From Sulfitobacter sp. HGT1 (GTDB lineage: Bacteria > Pseudomonadota > Alphaproteobacteria > Rhodobacterales > Rhodobacteraceae): a stretch of 64,000 nucleotides of DNA. This document shows, in pieces, positions 39,907 to 45,913 of this stretch. The translations under genes and the position numbers were made by a program. Where the stretch lies: NCBI RefSeq assembly GCF_013282155.1, contig NZ_BLWI01000008.1, forward strand, positions 620,001 through 684,000. The letters are read 5' to 3'. Positions within the stretch are counted from its first letter, which is position 1; every line of letters starts with the position of its first letter. The notes beneath the pieces are model-generated. The model made no database searches. It had not been told where the DNA came from and saw only the letters and a program-made list of their open reading frames with translations.

Positions 39907-40012
39907 GCCCTGCCCTATCCCGTATTTGCCCTGAACGGGCTTGTTTTGGTCAAATAGACCCTAACAAACTCCGTGACGCAATAAATGAATGGCGGCAATG
40001 GCAATGAGATAC

Positions 40013-40430
40013 TGAATAGCCCCTAGCGTTGTAGACGCTTTTTTTCCTAATTTTGAGGCAAGGAGGCCGTTATGGGGAAGCCAAATTTCAGTGAAGATTC
40101 CAAGCGTGATGCTGTGCATCAGATCACGGTGCGGGGGTATGGCGTTCGTGAGGTCTCAGAGCGTTTGGGTGTCAGCACACATTCGCTGTAAAAATGGATG
40201 AAGCTGTACGCGAAGGCCACGTCACAGGCTGTGTCGGTGGATCATGAAGCCGAGAACCGACGGCTCGAACGGGAACTGGCGCGGATGACCGAGGAGCGCG
40301 ATTTCTTAAGCAAGGCAGCCGCGTACTTCGCCCAAGATGCAAGATGAAGGACGCGTTTGTGGCAAAGCATCGCCCCGTCTTTTCGGTGCGTAGGATGTTC
40401 CGTTGCCTCAGCATCATAGAAGGTGTGTCC
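40013..40430 (+). pseudogene. IS3-family element remnant (orfA with stop, truncated orfB)
   Basis: A left end reading TGAATAGCCCCTAGCG resembles IS3-type inverted repeats. orfA runs 40072-40347: MGKPNFSEDSKRDAV begins the helix-turn-helix transposase, but codon 40 is TAA where related proteins have Tyr (HSL-stop-KWMKLYAKA). The leucine-zipper region ENRRLERELARMTEERDFL remains. orfB starts at 40343 in the usual overlap (ATGA) with MKDAFVAKHRPVFSVRRM and loses similarity after about 24 residues. The right end of the element is missing. It is inactive. The stretch 39907-40012 before it holds nothing recognisable. Confidence 0.8.
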
Positions 40431-40481
40431 CACTTTGGGTCACACTCGAGCGTTCAGCCGCCAACCCTTTGATTTAGAATA

Positions 40482-40528
40482 AAATGGAGGCGAGTAGGAG
40501 AATCGAACTCCTGTACACGGATTTGCAA
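40482..40528 (-). repeat. attL-like direct repeat: tRNA-Cys 3' end copy
   Basis: This 47-bp segment is identical to 45837-45883. It holds the 3' part of tRNA-Cys (T-arm, acceptor 3' strand, CCA) up to the anticodon and lacks the 5' half of the tRNA, so it is not a gene. It is the distal junction of an element that integrated at the tRNA. Similarity beyond the repeat (CGC-AAC-CTTTGA) continues more weakly on its left. Confidence 0.93.
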
Positions 40529-40648
40529 GAGTAAGCATGTTACTGAAAAGTATAGGTAAAGTGATTAGACACCTTCCAAATTAGGGCGGAACAATGAGCG
40601 AATGTTTAGACGTGCAGTTCTAGAATAAGTACTCCGCGCCCGCTAAAG

Positions 40649-40948
40649 TTACTGGTCCTTTAGCCAGTCTGAAATCTTAGCTACAAAGTCAGATAGAGCG
40701 ATGCCTCTGCTGATCCGTGAATCTAGGAAAGCGAACTCTTCCGAAACAATTGCTGGCCCAGTTTTTTCCAAGGAGAATTCGTAGCATCCACCCTCTGTAT
40801 CCAAGTTGGGGTTGTACCGGGCGACCCGCCAAAAACCCAATTCTTTCGCCGCCGCGTCAAGTACTAACCCCCATGAAAAGGCACGCTTGTAGCCTGAAGA
40901 GAGCCAGCGGTCGTGATCGATCAGGTTAATCTTGTATGGAAGAGGCAT
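40649..40948 (-). CDS. Hypothetical 99-residue protein of the island
   Basis: The frame starts MPLPYKINLIDHDRW with AAAGAGA upstream and ends DFVAKISDWLKDQ. It has no signal peptide, membrane helix or known motif; a central stretch is rich in Glu and Phe, and the fold looks mixed alpha/beta. It is the only gene between the attL repeat and the large ATPase, and lies on the same strand as the latter. A role as accessory to the ATPase is possible but not shown. Confidence 0.5.
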   Translation of the reverse strand: MPLPYKINLIDHDRWLSSGYKRAFSWGLVLDAAAKELGFWRVARYNPNLDTEGGCYEFSLEKTGPAIVSEEFAFLDSRISRGIALSDFVAKISDWLKDQ

Positions 40949-41377
40949 TTAATCATCTCTTTTCGTTGAGTCGGGAGTCTTGTTTCTAGCTCTATTTCGT
41001 CTGTCGAGGCTAAAAAAAAGGGAACCTCTCGGCCCAGAGCTGCCGTTCGCACCTTCGACCTGCACTGCGGTGCAGCTTCCGAAAAGCGGGCATTCACTCA
41101 CAGTCCGGCATTAATGGAATGCCAAAATCTGATCGGCGGACTTCATGGCCGCTGAGGTCAGCCCTCAAACTTCACAAGTGCATGTGTTTTTTCACGTTAC
41201 GGATCGACCAGTAACTGTTGTCAATTCCGGTTCATGAGCCAGATGTTTAAGTGACTAATCCCATAACGTTGGAAACCTTAGAAAAGGCCCTAAAAGCAGG
41301 TAGACTGATTGACGTCACGGATCGCTTATTACCAACGTAAAGCCAACCAGTCGAAAAACTTCAAATGCCCGCGTGTT
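40949..41377. other. Non-coding island stretch
   Basis: No convincing gene is seen. The stretch has a hairpin-forming GCACTGCGGTGC near 41062, and an AGCTGCCGTTCGC motif at 41038 similar to short sequences seen in other Roseobacter intergenic regions. It may carry the promoter of the 99-residue gene and the terminator of the ATPase gene. Confidence 0.5.
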
Positions 41378-43528
41378 TTAGGCGTTTTGCACGGGCGCAG
41401 AAAACTCCTCATCTACTATTTTATCGCAAGCAGACAAAATATGATCTGGTATTGTCTGAAATTTCGTCGGATCCAACTGCATAATGTAATCGTTTTCAAT
41501 GTGATAAGCTTCATTTACAAACTTGGCAGTGGTCGAATTACTCTTGCTGATCAAACCCATCATTCGAAAAATTTGAAGCTTCGAGTATCCGTTTTCCAAT
41601 TCGAAATAGAGTTTCCGCAGCTCTGCATCATCTCTAATAAATTTCAGATAAACATCATAATCGAATTGTGGAAATAATCCCAATATCTCCAATCTAGCGG
41701 ATTGAATGTCATCCACCATCATTTTTACTAGCCCTCCATTATCATCAAACTCTTCCGGCTCATCCTTCTTGTGAATCAAACTTGCCAAGACATTGTATGA
41801 ATTCCCCTTATTTGCCGTAATTTCAAAGTAGCGACGCAAATGGATCAATTTTACCAAGAAGTGTGCGTTGGAGTTGACAGCGGACATGCAGGCTTGAGAT
41901 GCTGATACAATATCTGATTTTTCTATTGCGCATTCAGAAATCGTTGAAGCGTTGTTAAAGACAAAGTGTGCGGCAACTTTCTCAAAGTGATTCCGCAAAG
42001 TGTAGATCATGTCAATGACAGGTTCGAAATCGTGCGTCATTAAAAGAACGGTCCTATTTTGAAAACTATCAGCTGACACGAAAAGGCGCTTAATAATCGC
42101 AAACTTCTTGTTTTTATCAAAGGAAGAGATCGGATCATCAAGTACGATTAGGTCCGGATTTTTTTTCAATACGTCATGCATGAATAAAATTAGGGCAAAT
42201 GCATTCTTTTCACCAAAGCTGAGATGTTGCGAACCTTGCTGCACAAAAGATTTTGAATCATTGTGCATTAGTCGCATTTTATAGGTTTTATCAACCGTTT
42301 CAACAGATACTCTGTAATGGTAACCGGCGTTTTGTAAAAATTCATTGATACTATCTTCATTGGATTTTATAAGAGTTGCTACTTGCTTTTTGTGCTTGGC
42401 AACACTTCCTTTCAAAAGGCCAATCTTTTGGCCAATTAAATGTAGCTTTCGATTAAACTCGTCGACAACAGCTCGAGTGGAAGCTGACGAAACTTCCTTC
42501 AAAAGATCCATATTAATTTTCAGGTCAATAATCTTGGCGTCATAATCAGTCACATCTTTTAAGCTATAGAAATCAATTTCACGTAGTGCTGAAATTTTCG
42601 ACTTAAGCAATTCGATTTGATTTTTGATCGCTCCTAAGAATAGCTTTTCCTCATCTGTCAACGCGGTCTTACTATGCGTAATATCGGTCAAACTGGAGTT
42701 TGCGTCGTCAGAAAAATAGGTGGACAGATTTTTCAAAATGTCGACTAGCGCATTCAAATGTTCGACTGTTTTCGCATCGTACTCTTGGTCGATCCGTAAA
42801 ATTGTTTCACGTTTTTCTACTGCTGGCTGAGTGCAGTATGGGCAATCATCGGACAAATCTAGAAATTTCTTACCGTCCATTTGCCACTTTAGCCAAGTCA
42901 CGTTTTCGTCTGATTGAAGAAATGGAGAGTACGCTTCTAACCCAGCGGGAACATTAGAAATCTTGTTCCCCTTTGATGTCGATTTTCCGATAGCTGACGC
43001 TGCTGAGTAACTTGATGTCTTCGTCGCTTTGCCAAAAGCTTTGAGTAACCCGTTCAGGTCCTCAAGCATTTTTTCGATATTCGGATCGTTGGTAAAAACG
43101 GATTTCAGTTCGGCCAAATGCATCTCAATCTCGGAAAATTTCTCATCATATTCGTCATTCTTGATGAAGATTTCGAAGCTGTTGGTTAGCAGCTCATCTG
43201 GTTTGAACAAGATTTCATCAATATAGGCGCTATCAAATACTGCGACCGATTTAATCTCGTCACCTCCAGATATAGATGGTTGGAAATCACCAAGCATCTT
43301 ACCGTCATCTAAATATTTGAATGGCGTCAGACTGTTCAGCTTTGCGGGATCAGTGGCATTTAGTGAAATTGCTTTAGCTATTGTACTCTTGCCCGTACCG
43401 TTTGCAGCGAACTTGATGTTCAGGAAACTCTCTTTAATTGAAATATTTGCCTCATCGATGTTGTTGCAGTTCTTAATTGTAATATCCAACTGGGTGCCCT
43501 CAAAATTTGACGTTAAAAACGCAACCAC
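41378..43528 (-). CDS. SMC-like AAA_13 ATPase, RloC/PrrC-like, possible defence effector
   Basis: A 716-residue ABC-type ATPase. In order: Walker A AANGTGKST (41-49), a coiled-coil region with CPYC (229-232) like a zinc hook, signature LSFGE (436-440), Walker B LIVLDDP (460-466), H-loop His499, and a C-terminal domain. That domain holds R565-x3-E569 and H586, an order like the Arg-Glu-His triad of PrrC/RloC anticodon nucleases, and a HIENDYI motif (676-682). RloC cleaves tRNA after phage attack; whether this C-terminal domain is a nuclease is not proven. No restriction-modification genes adjoin it. GTG 43528 is the listed start; TTG 43489, with GAGG upstream, may be the real one. Its coding sequence is clearly AT-rich. 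Confidence 0.75.
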   Translation of the reverse strand: MVAFLTSNFEGTQLDITIKNCNNIDEANISIKESFLNIKFAANGTGKSTIAKAISLNATDPAKLNSLTPFKYLDDGKMLGDFQPSISGGDEIKSVAVFDSAYIDEILFKPDELLTNSFEIFIKNDEYDEKFSEIEMHLAELKSVFTNDPNIEKMLEDLNGLLKAFGKATKTSSYSAASAIGKSTSKGNKISNVPAGLEAYSPFLQSDENVTWLKWQMDGKKFLDLSDDCPYCTQPAVEKRETILRIDQEYDAKTVEHLNALVDILKNLSTYFSDDANSSLTDITHSKTALTDEEKLFLGAIKNQIELLKSKISALREIDFYSLKDVTDYDAKIIDLKINMDLLKEVSSASTRAVVDEFNRKLHLIGQKIGLLKGSVAKHKKQVATLIKSNEDSINEFLQNAGYHYRVSVETVDKTYKMRLMHNDSKSFVQQGSQHLSFGEKNAFALILFMHDVLKKNPDLIVLDDPISSFDKNKKFAIIKRLFVSADSFQNRTVLLMTHDFEPVIDMIYTLRNHFEKVAAHFVFNNASTISECAIEKSDIVSASQACMSAVNSNAHFLVKLIHLRRYFEITANKGNSYNVLASLIHKKDEPEEFDDNGGLVKMMVDDIQSARLEILGLFPQFDYDVYLKFIRDDAELRKLYFELENGYSKLQIFRMMGLISKSNSTTAKFVNEAYHIENDYIMQLDPTKFQTIPDHILSACDKIVDEEFSAPVQNA

Positions 43529-43910
43529 TAGTTCAACTATAATTGCTTAATGTCAACCATGGCGTGCGTTCGGTGAGCCGGTAATTGAGGGCATTTTGAA
43601 TGACCGTCTTTCTACATTTCCAGCAAAGTCAGAGCAGACGCAGCGAATGGTGGCTCTCCGCCCACGATGACCATGCGAGCCCACCGGAGTTCTTCGGCAG
43701 TACACTCTTCTCGATCTGAGGACCTAAGTTGGTCACTGGCCGGCTAGCAGCCCACCTCAGACCTGCTTAGATCGTGCAGATCGGCTTTCCCGCTAGTGTG
43801 GGTGGCGCAAAAAGAGCTGATAGGCATCAGGCGCGCGCTTAGCGAGCGTGGCGCTAATGACCGAATTGAGGCTGGTCTGACTTGACTTGACTTGCGAAGC
43901 GGTAGCTGTG

Positions 43911-43949
43911 CCAATCCCCCGGAGACTTTATGTATCGGAGGGGGATTGG
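43911..43949. repeat. Hairpin in the island control region
   Basis: CCAATCCCCC and GGGGGATTGG form a perfect 10-bp stem around a 19-base loop. There is no T run, so it is not a simple terminator. Confidence 0.7.
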
Positions 43950-43992
43950 GGCGGCGGGCCAGATACACTCCCCTTGTTCCTGTATACAACTA

Positions 43993-44124
43993 GTGACAGG
44001 AAAAACTGTAACATTTCGCGTGAACAGGGGCGCTTGTTTGACGTCGCTTTCAAAGCAACTGGTTGCTGTGGCGAATAAACAGCGAACATCGAGGCCCGTA
44101 CTGACAGACAAAACTGTAACATTT
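43993..44124 (+). repeat. Pair of 24-bp direct repeats
   Basis: The copies occupy 43993-44016 and 44101-44124, 108 bp apart. Both contain TGACAG, then after 3 bases AAAACTGTAACATTT, with 21 or more of 24 positions equal. The second lies 137 bp before the 57-residue gene. Regularly placed copies near divergent promoters suggest operator sites. Confidence 0.7.
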
Positions 44125-44260
44125 AGAAAATTCTTTGGTATGTTGTAGGGTGCCGTCTAACCCACTACCTTTTTTCCAAGCGATTTTGCACGGATCAATA
44201 TCCGTTCAGACACAGTATGCGCGAATGAGATTGGAACAAAGGGTCCTCAGGGGGGATGGT

Positions 44261-44434
44261 ATGGCGCAAGCAAAAATAGAAGACAAAGCGTTGCGTTTTC
44301 TTGCTGCGTTTGAGCGCGCCGGAAAGTCAGTTGGACGTGTCACTATTGATGGAAAGAAAATTGAGCTTGTCTTGATTGAGCATGGCCAGATTGATGAATA
44401 CGACAGGATAGATATGACCCATGGCAAAGCGTGA
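44261..44434 (+). CDS. 57-residue protein before the integrase
   Basis: ATG 44261 is chosen: GGGGGA lies 5-10 bases upstream and the sequence MAQAKIEDKALRFLAAFERA begins a typical small helical protein. A longer frame from 44135 has poor codon content. A beta-hairpin-like RVTIDGKKIELVLI follows. The stop lies 14 bp inside the integrase gene, so translation is coupled. Size and place fit an excisionase or integrase helper, but no known family is recognised. Confidence 0.6.
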   Translation: MAQAKIEDKALRFLAAFERAGKSVGRVTIDGKKIELVLIEHGQIDEYDRIDMTHGKA

Positions 44435-45431
44435 GCTTCCAAAGTATATATATCGCCAAAGAAATGGCCTGTACTTTCAAAGGCGTGGTTGGCCGACCCG
44501 TAAAATCGAAAATGAGTTTGGAACGGCTGAGTTCTGGCGCGAGTATGCAGATATCCTTGCCGACAAGGATCAAGCGCCAAGAGTCACCACTCGTTCATTT
44601 GCGGCTTTGATCAAAAGCTATCGTGCCAATCCGAGATATCGCAATTTGAAACCTCGGACAGGTAAGGACTACGACAAATATCTCGATTTCTTTCAAGAGA
44701 TTATGGGGGACCGAAACCCGGTCCACCTTAAAAGGAAAGACGTAATTAGGCTGCGAGATGCGAACGCGGCAAAGGCGTATTTTGCGAATTACTCATTGCG
44801 GGTTCTTCGCGTTCTTATGGAGCACTGCGTTGACTTAGGTTGGCGCGAAACCAACCCGGTACGCGGCGTTTCTGAGCTCAAGACTACTAAGTCGGAGCGC
44901 GAACCGTGGCCGTCTGATCTACTGACGCTCTATCGGGCGGAATGTCCGCTTGGGACACGCGAGAGACTGGTGATGGAACTTTGCGTTGGCACTGGGCAGA
45001 GGATCGGAGACGTTCTCGAAATGCGCTGGTCCGATATTCAGGACGGCGGTTTCGTCGTTCGGCAAAATAAGACCGGCAAAGAACTCTGGGTGCCGGTTCT
45101 GCCCGAGCTGCAAGCGGCGTTGGACGACGCTAGTCGGCATTCGGTGTTTATCCTTACAAATGAGCGCGGAATTAATCGCTGGTCTTATCGCGGAGCATCG
45201 CAAGCGGTGAGAAAAGTCAGGGAGGCCATTGGCGCGCTAGATTACGATATTCACAGCTGGCGCTACAACGCGGCCTGTGAGCTTGTTGAAGCTGGCTGTA
45301 GCGATGACCTCGTCGCCTCTGTTACAGGTCAGAGCCCCGCCATGGTCCTGCACTACACCAAGAAGGTGAGGCAGAAGATAAGGGCCATGCAGGCGCAACA
45401 AAAGCGGCACGAGGTCAAGAAGAAGCTTTAG
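44421..45431 (+). CDS. int: Tyrosine recombinase (island integrase)
   Basis: A 336-residue phage-type integrase that would excise and integrate the element at tRNA-Cys. Catalytic residues: Arg194 in GTGQRIGDVLEMRW, Lys217 in QNKTGKELW, His278 and Arg281 in IHSWRYNAA, and Tyr312 in LHYTKK. The usual second His is replaced by Gln304 (VTGQSP), a change that occurs in some family members. The N-terminus has the arm-binding-like segment with RNGLYFQRRGW. It is 406 bp from the 45837-45883 repeat and faces the tRNA. Confidence 0.93.
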   Translation: MAKRELPKYIYRQRNGLYFQRRGWPTRKIENEFGTAEFWREYADILADKDQAPRVTTRSFAALIKSYRANPRYRNLKPRTGKDYDKYLDFFQEIMGDRNPVHLKRKDVIRLRDANAAKAYFANYSLRVLRVLMEHCVDLGWRETNPVRGVSELKTTKSEREPWPSDLLTLYRAECPLGTRERLVMELCVGTGQRIGDVLEMRWSDIQDGGFVVRQNKTGKELWVPVLPELQAALDDASRHSVFILTNERGINRWSYRGASQAVRKVREAIGALDYDIHSWRYNAACELVEAGCSDDLVASVTGQSPAMVLHYTKKVRQKIRAMQAQQKRHEVKKKL

Positions 45432-45673
45432 CTTGGTTCTCGTTCCGCAATGTGGACTAAAAGTCCAACTACTATGCCCATTGCTACCCACATTAGCCCC
45501 TGATCAGCGGCTTGGCCGGGTGCACCGGACCCGATGTAACGGCTCGTCGCGGCCGCTAGGGCTACAGGGTCATCATGTAAGGCAAAGGCCACATACCAAG
45601 CGGTTCCCGCTCGAAAAATTCCCAGAACAAGTAATGTCCAAGCGAGTAGCTTGCCGAGCTTTACAAAAATCAT
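45428..45673 (-). CDS. Small two-helix membrane protein of the island
   Basis: An 81-residue frame with two hydrophobic segments (LLAWTLLVLGIFRAGTAWY and GLMWVAMGIVVGLLVHIA) joined by a polar loop. It converges with the integrase gene, overlapping it by 4 bp. The region is inside the tRNA-Cys element. A membrane partner of the defence ATPase is possible but not indicated by gene order. Function unknown. Confidence 0.5.
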   Translation of the reverse strand: MIFVKLGKLLAWTLLVLGIFRAGTAWYVAFALHDDPVALAAATSRYIGSGAPGQAADQGLMWVAMGIVVGLLVHIAEREPS

Positions 45674-45836
45674 TGGTCTTCCCTAAGAATGCGAGAGTCA
45701 TAACTGGTGGTTCCAGTTCCGTTTTTCGGTAACCGCGTACACGGAAACAGTGAACAGAACAAAAACAGAATGTTTAGACATTTGCTTAGACGCCTACTAA
45801 GCGTGCTGTCCTAAAATCCGCTAACTCTTTGAAATT

Positions 45837-45883
45837 AAATGGAGGCGAGTAGGAGAATCGAACTCCTGTACACGGATTTGCAA
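45837..45883 (-). repeat. attR-like direct repeat within tRNA-Cys
   Basis: Identical to 40482-40528 over 47 bp. It overlaps the 3' half of the intact tRNA-Cys gene, which the element end reconstitutes. Confidence 0.93.
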
Positions 45884-45913
45884 TCCGCTGCGTAACCACT
45901 CCGCCAACTCGCC
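45840..45913 (-). tRNA. tRNA-Cys (anticodon GCA), integration target
   Basis: The minus strand folds as a 74-base tRNA: acceptor GGCGAGT/ACTCGCC with TCCA, anticodon loop ATTGCAAAT region containing GCA, T-arm CAGGAGTTCGATTCTCCTA. It is the only intact copy here. Its 3' 43 bases are repeated at the other end of the island. Confidence 0.97.

Follow-up and report, generated by a model that had tools for sequence, protein, structure and literature searches.

Defence islands at RNA genes are already known, and they provide the background for the element discussed here, which occupies positions 40482 to 45883 of a 64,000-nucleotide stretch (the window) of Sulfitobacter sp. HGT1, a member of the Rhodobacteraceae (RefSeq assembly GCF_013282155.1, contig NZ_BLWI01000008.1, positions 620,001 to 684,000 of the forward strand). 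The Pseudomonas tmRNA islands with intY (PMC12595487) likewise have a tyrosine integrase and defence cargo, carry direct repeats at an RNA gene and lack transfer genes of their own; the three captured islands measure about 23, 44 and 55 kb and their relatives range from less than 20 to more than 70 kb, whereas the family of the window element spans 4.35-5.88 kb and carries one module. The PICMIs, marine satellites of Vibrionaceae, resemble it in size (about 6-7 kb; PICMI115 has 6,110 bp and the average in complete Vibrionaceae genomes is 6.7 kb), in having an integrase with an overlapping small gene, the deletion of which blocked excision, and in their exchangeable accessory genes. The window element differs from PICMIs in that it has int only, with no match to AlpA or a primase, in its site (tRNA-Cys, not fis) and in its host family. 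The open-access literature yielded no family so compact and so regular in size with a single exchangeable module, most subscription papers and bioRxiv preprints lying outside that scope.

The cargo of the element is an ATPase whose family is likewise known, as a candidate: it matches PDC-S06 end to end, a candidate class of many divergent models, which one paper describes as unpublished and as named otherwise by DefenseFinder; no functional test of PDC-S06 was found in the parts of the open-access literature covered. The second protein relevant for comparison is RloC, whose published signature is R-x3-E-x36-52-H plus a CxxC hook, and which is linked to restriction-modification (R-M) only sometimes. 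The best explanation overall, which we hold to be quite probable, is that the window contains a Rhodobacteraceae 'single-slot defence cartridge' loaded with a stand-alone PDC-S06 ATPase.

Anatomy of the tRNA-Cys element

The 5.4-kb feature is a compact integrative element in tRNA-Cys. As the initial annotation (made without database searches) had proposed, it is bounded by exact 47-bp direct repeats, found by a repeat search of the window at 40482-40528 and 45837-45883 with a spacing of 5,355 bp, and these are the only two exact copies in the 3.8-Mb assembly. The pair is embedded in a 56-nt block that is 95% identical between the ends; the chance expectation for such a repeat pair is about 1e-21 in 7.5 kb of random sequence. 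The right repeat consists of the 3' half of tRNA-Cys(gca), from the anticodon loop to the 3' end, plus 3 bp, and the left repeat is the displaced half. Two further claims of that annotation were borne out, namely (i) an intact tRNA-Cys at the integrase end, which is called as the same gene by ARAGORN and by Rfam (RF00005, E 1.2e-12), and (ii) a tyrosine recombinase with the full R-K-H-R-Y set, since the integrase (44421-45431) is intact, matches Phage_integrase at E 7.8e-16 and has complete R-K-H-x-x-R-Y motifs when read by eye. The G+C content is 45.9% in the element and 39.2% in the ATPase gene, as against 58-60% in the 10 kb on each side. The features are as follows (open reading frames, ORFs, are given as genes).

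40482..40528, minus strand: attL core, displaced tRNA-Cys 3' half of 47 bp; exact copy of 45837-45883
40600..40611, plus strand: left inner arm-type site GAATGTTTAGAC; motif search, at most 2 mismatches
40649..40948, minus strand: 99-aa gene P0003 at the element end; homologue (73% identity) at the corresponding end of sister locus L169
41378..43528, minus strand: 716-aa cargo ATPase, PADLOC PDC-S06, RloC-like; profiles, alignment and model
43991-44016 and 44099-44124, plus strand: two 26-bp direct repeats in the gap between cargo and integrase; repeat search
44261..44434, plus strand: 57-aa gene P0005, overlapping the integrase start; tblastn matches in sister elements
44421..45431, plus strand: tyrosine recombinase P0002; Phage_integrase profile
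45428..45673, minus strand: 81-aa membrane protein gene P0004, accessory backbone; homologues in sister loci L130 and L166
45768..45779, plus strand: right inner arm-type site GAATGTTTAGAC; motif search, at most 2 mismatches
45837..45883, minus strand: attR core, within the intact tRNA-Cys; repeat and tRNA calls
45840..45913, minus strand: tRNA-Cys(gca), the integration target, intact; ARAGORN and Rfam RF00005

Among the five element ORFs scanned, profile searches found no relaxase, conjugation or mobilisation gene over cut-off (the 81-aa protein has a sub-threshold match to TraA, E 0.1), and no replication or packaging gene was recognised. A hidden retron-like non-coding RNA was also considered and found no support in the Rfam scan, in which the tRNA alone scored above the gathering threshold.

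Outside the left end there are two stretches of a different nature. An interrupted transposase remnant, resembling the IS3 family by eye, lies at 40009-40416, and similar stretches occur elsewhere in the genus. Directly beyond attL (40409-40481), 71-75 bp resemble the outside of the cores in genome G039 and in sister locus L175 at 83-85%, as though a tandem element had been lost and its end left behind.

Sister elements of near-uniform size and their exchanged cargo

Sister loci were collected by close integrase match from genomes of the genus, genomes of the family and IMG/VR contigs. Integrase relatives located at tRNA-Cys or at one of the core copies arrayed there are present in 12 of the 60 genus genomes (E<=1e-50), with eight genus matches, the window's own included, reaching at least 73% identity; at E<=1e-120 they are present in 13 of 394 family genomes, again including its own. 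In IMG/VR, five contigs carry integrase relatives that are 68-81% identical, and one of these contig loci is the same as genome locus L168. The resulting 25 integrase loci reduce to 24 distinct ones including the window, as L181 is identical to L168 and was counted once. Both ends, with tRNA-Cys-type cores, were found in 11 of the 24 (the window and ten sisters). These eleven complete elements measure 4,350-5,877 bp (mean 5,364, standard deviation 408), none exceeding 5.9 kb. Each of the eleven has GAATGTTTAGAC (at most 2 mismatches) inside both ends, counted from the outer core end at 115-117 nt on the left and 103-116 nt on the right, compared with two matches in 55,087 bp of interior sequence. 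Within the genus, the five core-to-core intervals with this integrase type span 4.4-5.7 kb, and 20 other core intervals span 2.3-57 kb, among them the 19.2-kb interval of L132, at the end of which this integrase type lies; the interval set excludes copies separated by contig boundaries, four more in genome G002 and one distant copy in G014.

The ends and integrases are related, and the cargo between them varies among the elements as follows.

Window: PDC-S06 ATPase (complete)
L128, L179: SIR2 + HerA (complete)
L130, L134: NsnA/DUF262 + HEPN (complete)
L167: type IIG R-M, E 0 (complete)
L170: RT-Toprim defence RT (reverse transcriptase), 8e-171 (complete)
L175: Dsr1, E 0 (complete)
L164: AAA_21 ATPase, weak generic defence match (complete)
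L131: ATP-grasp + SNase, no PADLOC match in the larger ORFs scanned (complete)
L169: unknown genes + SNase, no PADLOC match in the larger ORFs scanned (complete)
L132: Gabija (incomplete locus)
L166: CBASS (incomplete locus)
L180: nSTAND3-Mrr PDC-S73 (incomplete locus)

A PADLOC match at 1e-10 is found in the cargo of nine of the eleven complete elements, or eight without L164. Integrase identity is 96-98.5% among L131, L132 and L180 and 96.1% between L128 and L130, and in both sets the cargo is unrelated. On the basis of integrases, ends and cargo, the window element can be assigned to a Rhodobacteraceae family of near-uniform size with exchangeable cargo. This goes beyond the initial annotation, because comparison between genomes was needed to recognise it. 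A gene resembling staphylococcal nuclease (SNase) recurs in the family, with Pfam SNase matches in L131, L165 and L169; in L134 the evidence is a PADLOC match to a nuclease, which is weak (E 4e-6).

The small genes can be judged in the same way. The 57-aa ORF, which the initial annotation overlooked, overlaps the integrase start by 14 nt, and tblastn finds matches to it directly before the integrase gene in all ten complete sister elements; it is part of the backbone and a candidate directionality factor or integrase regulator, and a role in mobility is possible because its position recalls the int-overlapping gene of PICMIs. The 99-aa and 81-aa ORFs proposed by that annotation have become more credible as genes because homologues occur in other elements. 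Specifically, a homologue of the 99-aa protein (73% identity) sits at the same end of L169, whose cargo differs, and homologues of the 81-aa protein (45-47% identical; its membrane nature was read by eye) accompany a DUF262-HEPN cargo in L130 and a CBASS cargo in L166. The profile libraries gave no match above curated cut-offs for the 99-aa protein. All three small genes were considered as partners of the ATPase and ruled out, since their homologues or, for the 57-aa gene, tblastn matches occur in sisters with other cargo, and they belong to the vehicle instead. The two 26-bp repeats (starting at 43991 and 44099, 88% alike) were tried as a family feature and rejected, being absent from nine of the ten sisters: L169 has a single copy of the AAAACTGTAACATTT that the two repeats share, and the nine other sister elements have no copy. 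They are possibly regulatory or accessory-protein sites. The orientation of the integrase gene is variable too, as it points away from tRNA-Cys in L128, L130 and L170, unlike in the window, L131, L134 and L164, the arms being the same.

Under the reading favoured here, the elements have a constant backbone, made up of the tRNA-derived core, the integrase, its overlapping 57-aa gene and an arm site some 115 nt in from either end. This backbone would move a slot of about 2-4 kb that holds one defence module and is exchanged between elements, with the integrase acting at tRNA-Cys through the arm sites, possibly aided by the 57-aa protein. Excision and insertion by the integrase at tRNA-Cys are inferred from anatomy and comparison. 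In genome G051, about 0.3 kb separates an unoccupied tRNA-Cys from the gene that lies to the left of the window element, and in G013 the same left flank adjoins the left core of a sister element; the two genomes share 702 bp at 75%, and their last 151 and 314 bp fail to align. A similar pair, G012 and G046, surrounds a 19.4-kb insertion. Tandem core copies at tRNA-Cys in several genomes mark the site as a hotspot.

Several points weigh against this reading. (i) The empty-site comparison that the initial annotation had called for delivered occupied and unoccupied pairs with shared flanks, and not the base-precise joining it expected: the last 117-314 bp before the core are unaligned in these pairs, the joined flanks of L169 have no spanning match among 80 relatives of genome G470, and neither the genome pairs nor the L169 search contained a base-precise empty site. 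(ii) The stretches of L132, L136, L171 and L183 contain no second core (the next copy of L132 is 19.2 kb off), and the other nine incomplete loci run into a contig end or have no recognisable core; as the stretches extended about 7-9 kb on many sides, elements above that size might have escaped notice. (iii) Some integrases are broken, with a frameshift in L175 (counted among the eleven complete elements), stops in L136 and two frames in L172. (iv) L131 and L169 have no defence match and that of L164 is weak and generic. (v) The control for the defence matches, in which none of ten ORFs (the largest beyond one core of each sister) matched PADLOC at 1e-10, is small and rough, as the ORFs of L131 and L134 lie in neighbouring array elements, L164 showed no tRNA and the ORF of L128 may be non-coding.

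The cargo ATPase

The initial annotation described one large SMC- or RloC-like ATPase with a likely defence role, and this description has held, with a PDC-S06 match, a Rad50-like head and a CxxC hook. While Pfam AAA_13 matches the 716-aa protein partially (E 1.4e-16), the defence-profile search that the annotation had suggested aligned residues 15-707 with positions 2-689 of the 693 of PADLOC PDC-S06 (PDLC04889, E 6.2e-260), so that the protein can be classed as a full-length member of this phage-defence candidate. Two plasmid relatives and one genome relative that were scanned match the same model. Relatives covering at least 80% of the query occur in 776 of 72,556 plasmid records, and 209 stretches were confirmed in species genomes, 80 of which were kept for analysis; there was no match in 50,697 phage records and no confirmed match among viral contigs. 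Close to home the gene is rare. Any match at E<=0.001 is limited to nine of 193 related genomes, in three of which most of the protein is covered (its own, G067 at 74% identity and G044 at 42%), and among 289 sampled genomes of the class only its own matches at E<=1e-60. So patchy a distribution is typical of defence genes that spread horizontally.

The annotation's view that the ATPase represents an unrecognised system therefore had to be given up, and so did the suggested combination of ATPase, 99-aa gene and membrane peptide. Homologues of the small genes sit with other cargo, and across 88 loci with ATPase homologues no neighbour is fixed: the commonest neighbouring family occurs in six loci and the next in 5, 5, 4 and 4. 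Families found in 6, 5 and 3 loci are a type I methyltransferase, a type I restriction enzyme and a type I specificity subunit (profile matches of one member each); others, named by eye, are SbcC/SbcD-, integrase- and resolvase-like. The ATPase thus appears to lack a fixed partner gene. Counting against a protein that stands alone, a same-strand ORF lies within 100 bp upstream in 24 of 84 and downstream in 17 of 79 cases, and some homologues may be in operons.

The closest relative of the ATPase (74% identical), in L032 of Loktanella salsilacus, has a tRNA-Met nearby and an integrase of another type (Arm-DNA-bind_3), from which it follows that the ATPase rides other vehicles too; the same stretch (L032:1-10674) also codes for a large protein which, by eye only, looks like a primase-helicase. 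Relatives of the ATPase are common on enterobacterial plasmids, which had raised the suspicion that it might be IbfA. This identity was ruled out, as IbfA has 518 aa and a TOPRIM domain.

The layout of the protein recalls the anticodon nucleases RloC and PrrC: an ABC/Rad50-like ATPase is split by a CxxC hook, an R-x3-E follows in the C-terminal part and a link to type I R-M is occasional. Conservation was assessed in an alignment of 89 rows, 87 of them full-length and two without the C-terminal part (sequences were cut at the first stop), from which 11 of the 80 genome loci were left out, nine with a stop in the stretch and two as duplicates (L032 and L057, represented by L004 and L005). C229 and C232 (CPYC), R565, R566, E569, H676 and N679 do not vary in any of the 87 full-length rows. 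Aligned by profile with three AAA_13/PDC-S06 proteins in full length (Prob 99), the family is covered over residues 213-627 and not over the last 89, and its CPYC pairs with their CxxC and its LRRxxE with their R-x3-E region. Of the RloC signature, the protein has the CxxC hook interrupting the ATPase (in sequence) and the R-x3-E, yet the spacing of the histidine departs from the triad R-x3-E-x36-52-H. It is thus RloC-like in predicted layout and lacks one defining feature of RloC. Further differences are its length (716 aa as against 804 aa in the RloC of G. kaustophilus), its C-terminal extension and the unmatched fold of its C-terminal domain, and tRNA cleavage is a putative activity.

We propose, conditionally, that the ATPase would sense infection or DNA damage through the Rad50-like head and the CPYC hook, and that an ATP-driven rearrangement would switch on the C-terminal domain, an RNase-type effector that, like that of RloC, would rely on R565/R566, E569 and a histidine and would stop translation and lead to abortive infection, the protein acting alone as sensor and effector. 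That the effector is an RNase is a tentative assignment, which we rate a little short of even. Specifically, the histidine that aligns with the catalytic one of RloC (H586, x16) is a lysine in 16 of the 87 rows, and the unvaried H676 sits 106 residues past E569, beyond the X36-52 of RloC. The C-terminal domain is mostly helical; modelled alone (pLDDT 89), it finds nothing in the PDB at E<=0.001, and its profile does not align convincingly with the C-termini of AAA_13 proteins (Prob 2.6). These points speak against the RNase assignment. A HEPN fold, which had been suspected, was not supported by the PDB fold search. With the model of the whole protein, no PrrC or RloC structure is among the best 50 of 1,383 PDB matches.

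The strongest competitor holds that the ATPase is a sensor of DNA ends on phage DNA, of the SMC/Rad50 or PtuA-like kind, with a regulatory or DNA-clamping C-terminal domain. In the fold comparison with the confident AlphaFold model of the whole protein (pLDDT 87), the best PDB folds are indeed SMC/Rad50 heads, with the PtuA-like chains of retron IA ranking lower. The missing PDB relative of the C-terminal domain and the departure of its histidine spacing from RloC fit this alternative as well. However, no nuclease partner gene is conserved among the 88 loci, and the invariance of R565, R566, E569, H676 and N679 suggests a catalytic site in the C-terminal part, so that we regard a purely end-sensing protein as possible and rather doubtful.

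Nature of the element and its carrier

With respect to the vehicle, it may be asked whether the element is a minimal phage satellite of the PICMI type, the cargo of which mainly excludes phages that compete with its helper and the small size of which results from packaging of concatemers by that helper. Similar size, an int-overlapping gene and a hotspot of changing accessory genes in PICMIs would agree with this, as would the five integrase relatives in IMG/VR contigs, one of which is the copy of L168 mentioned above. The alpA and primase genes that define PICMIs are, however, absent from the ORFs of the window element, the site is tRNA-Cys instead of fis, and the ATPase is unmatched in the phage records and without a confirmed match in viral contigs; a satellite of this type therefore seems unlikely. 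That the element is a decayed, immobile island, with integrase and cargo as leftovers at an old hotspot, is less likely still, for although the left flank has IS3-like remnants and a remnant-like att flank and the integrases of L136, L172 and L175 are broken, in the window element the integrase, the gene that overlaps it, the two arms, the two exact cores and the tRNA are all intact, and near-identical integrases with different cargo imply recent activity of the family.

It has also been considered whether the single-slot elements constitute a separate and undescribed class of ultra-compact defence elements without replication, packaging or transfer genes, limited in size by their carrier, with one module per tRNA-Cys slot and tandem arrays. 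This is an idea to which we give a low probability. Candidate carriers are the gene transfer agent (GTA) of Rhodobacterales or a helper phage that packages concatemers. The genome of Sulfitobacter sp. HGT1 itself codes for a GTA_TIM-domain protein (G000:C10:391282-392175, E 1.2e-150), which may be taken as a sign of an RcGTA-type gene transfer agent, and the head capacity of a GTA is about 4-5 kb.

For the cargo, the comparison narrows the question of the ATPase effector to a few unvaried residues. For the family as a whole, the near-uniform size raises a testable question about the carrier of the element, and the element offers a small and defined vehicle in which the trade of immune systems can be studied, with one backbone, one site, one slot and many modules. 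Reading the slots of such elements could reveal new defence genes, the cargo of L131 and L169, without a PADLOC match in the larger ORFs scanned, being the examples at hand.

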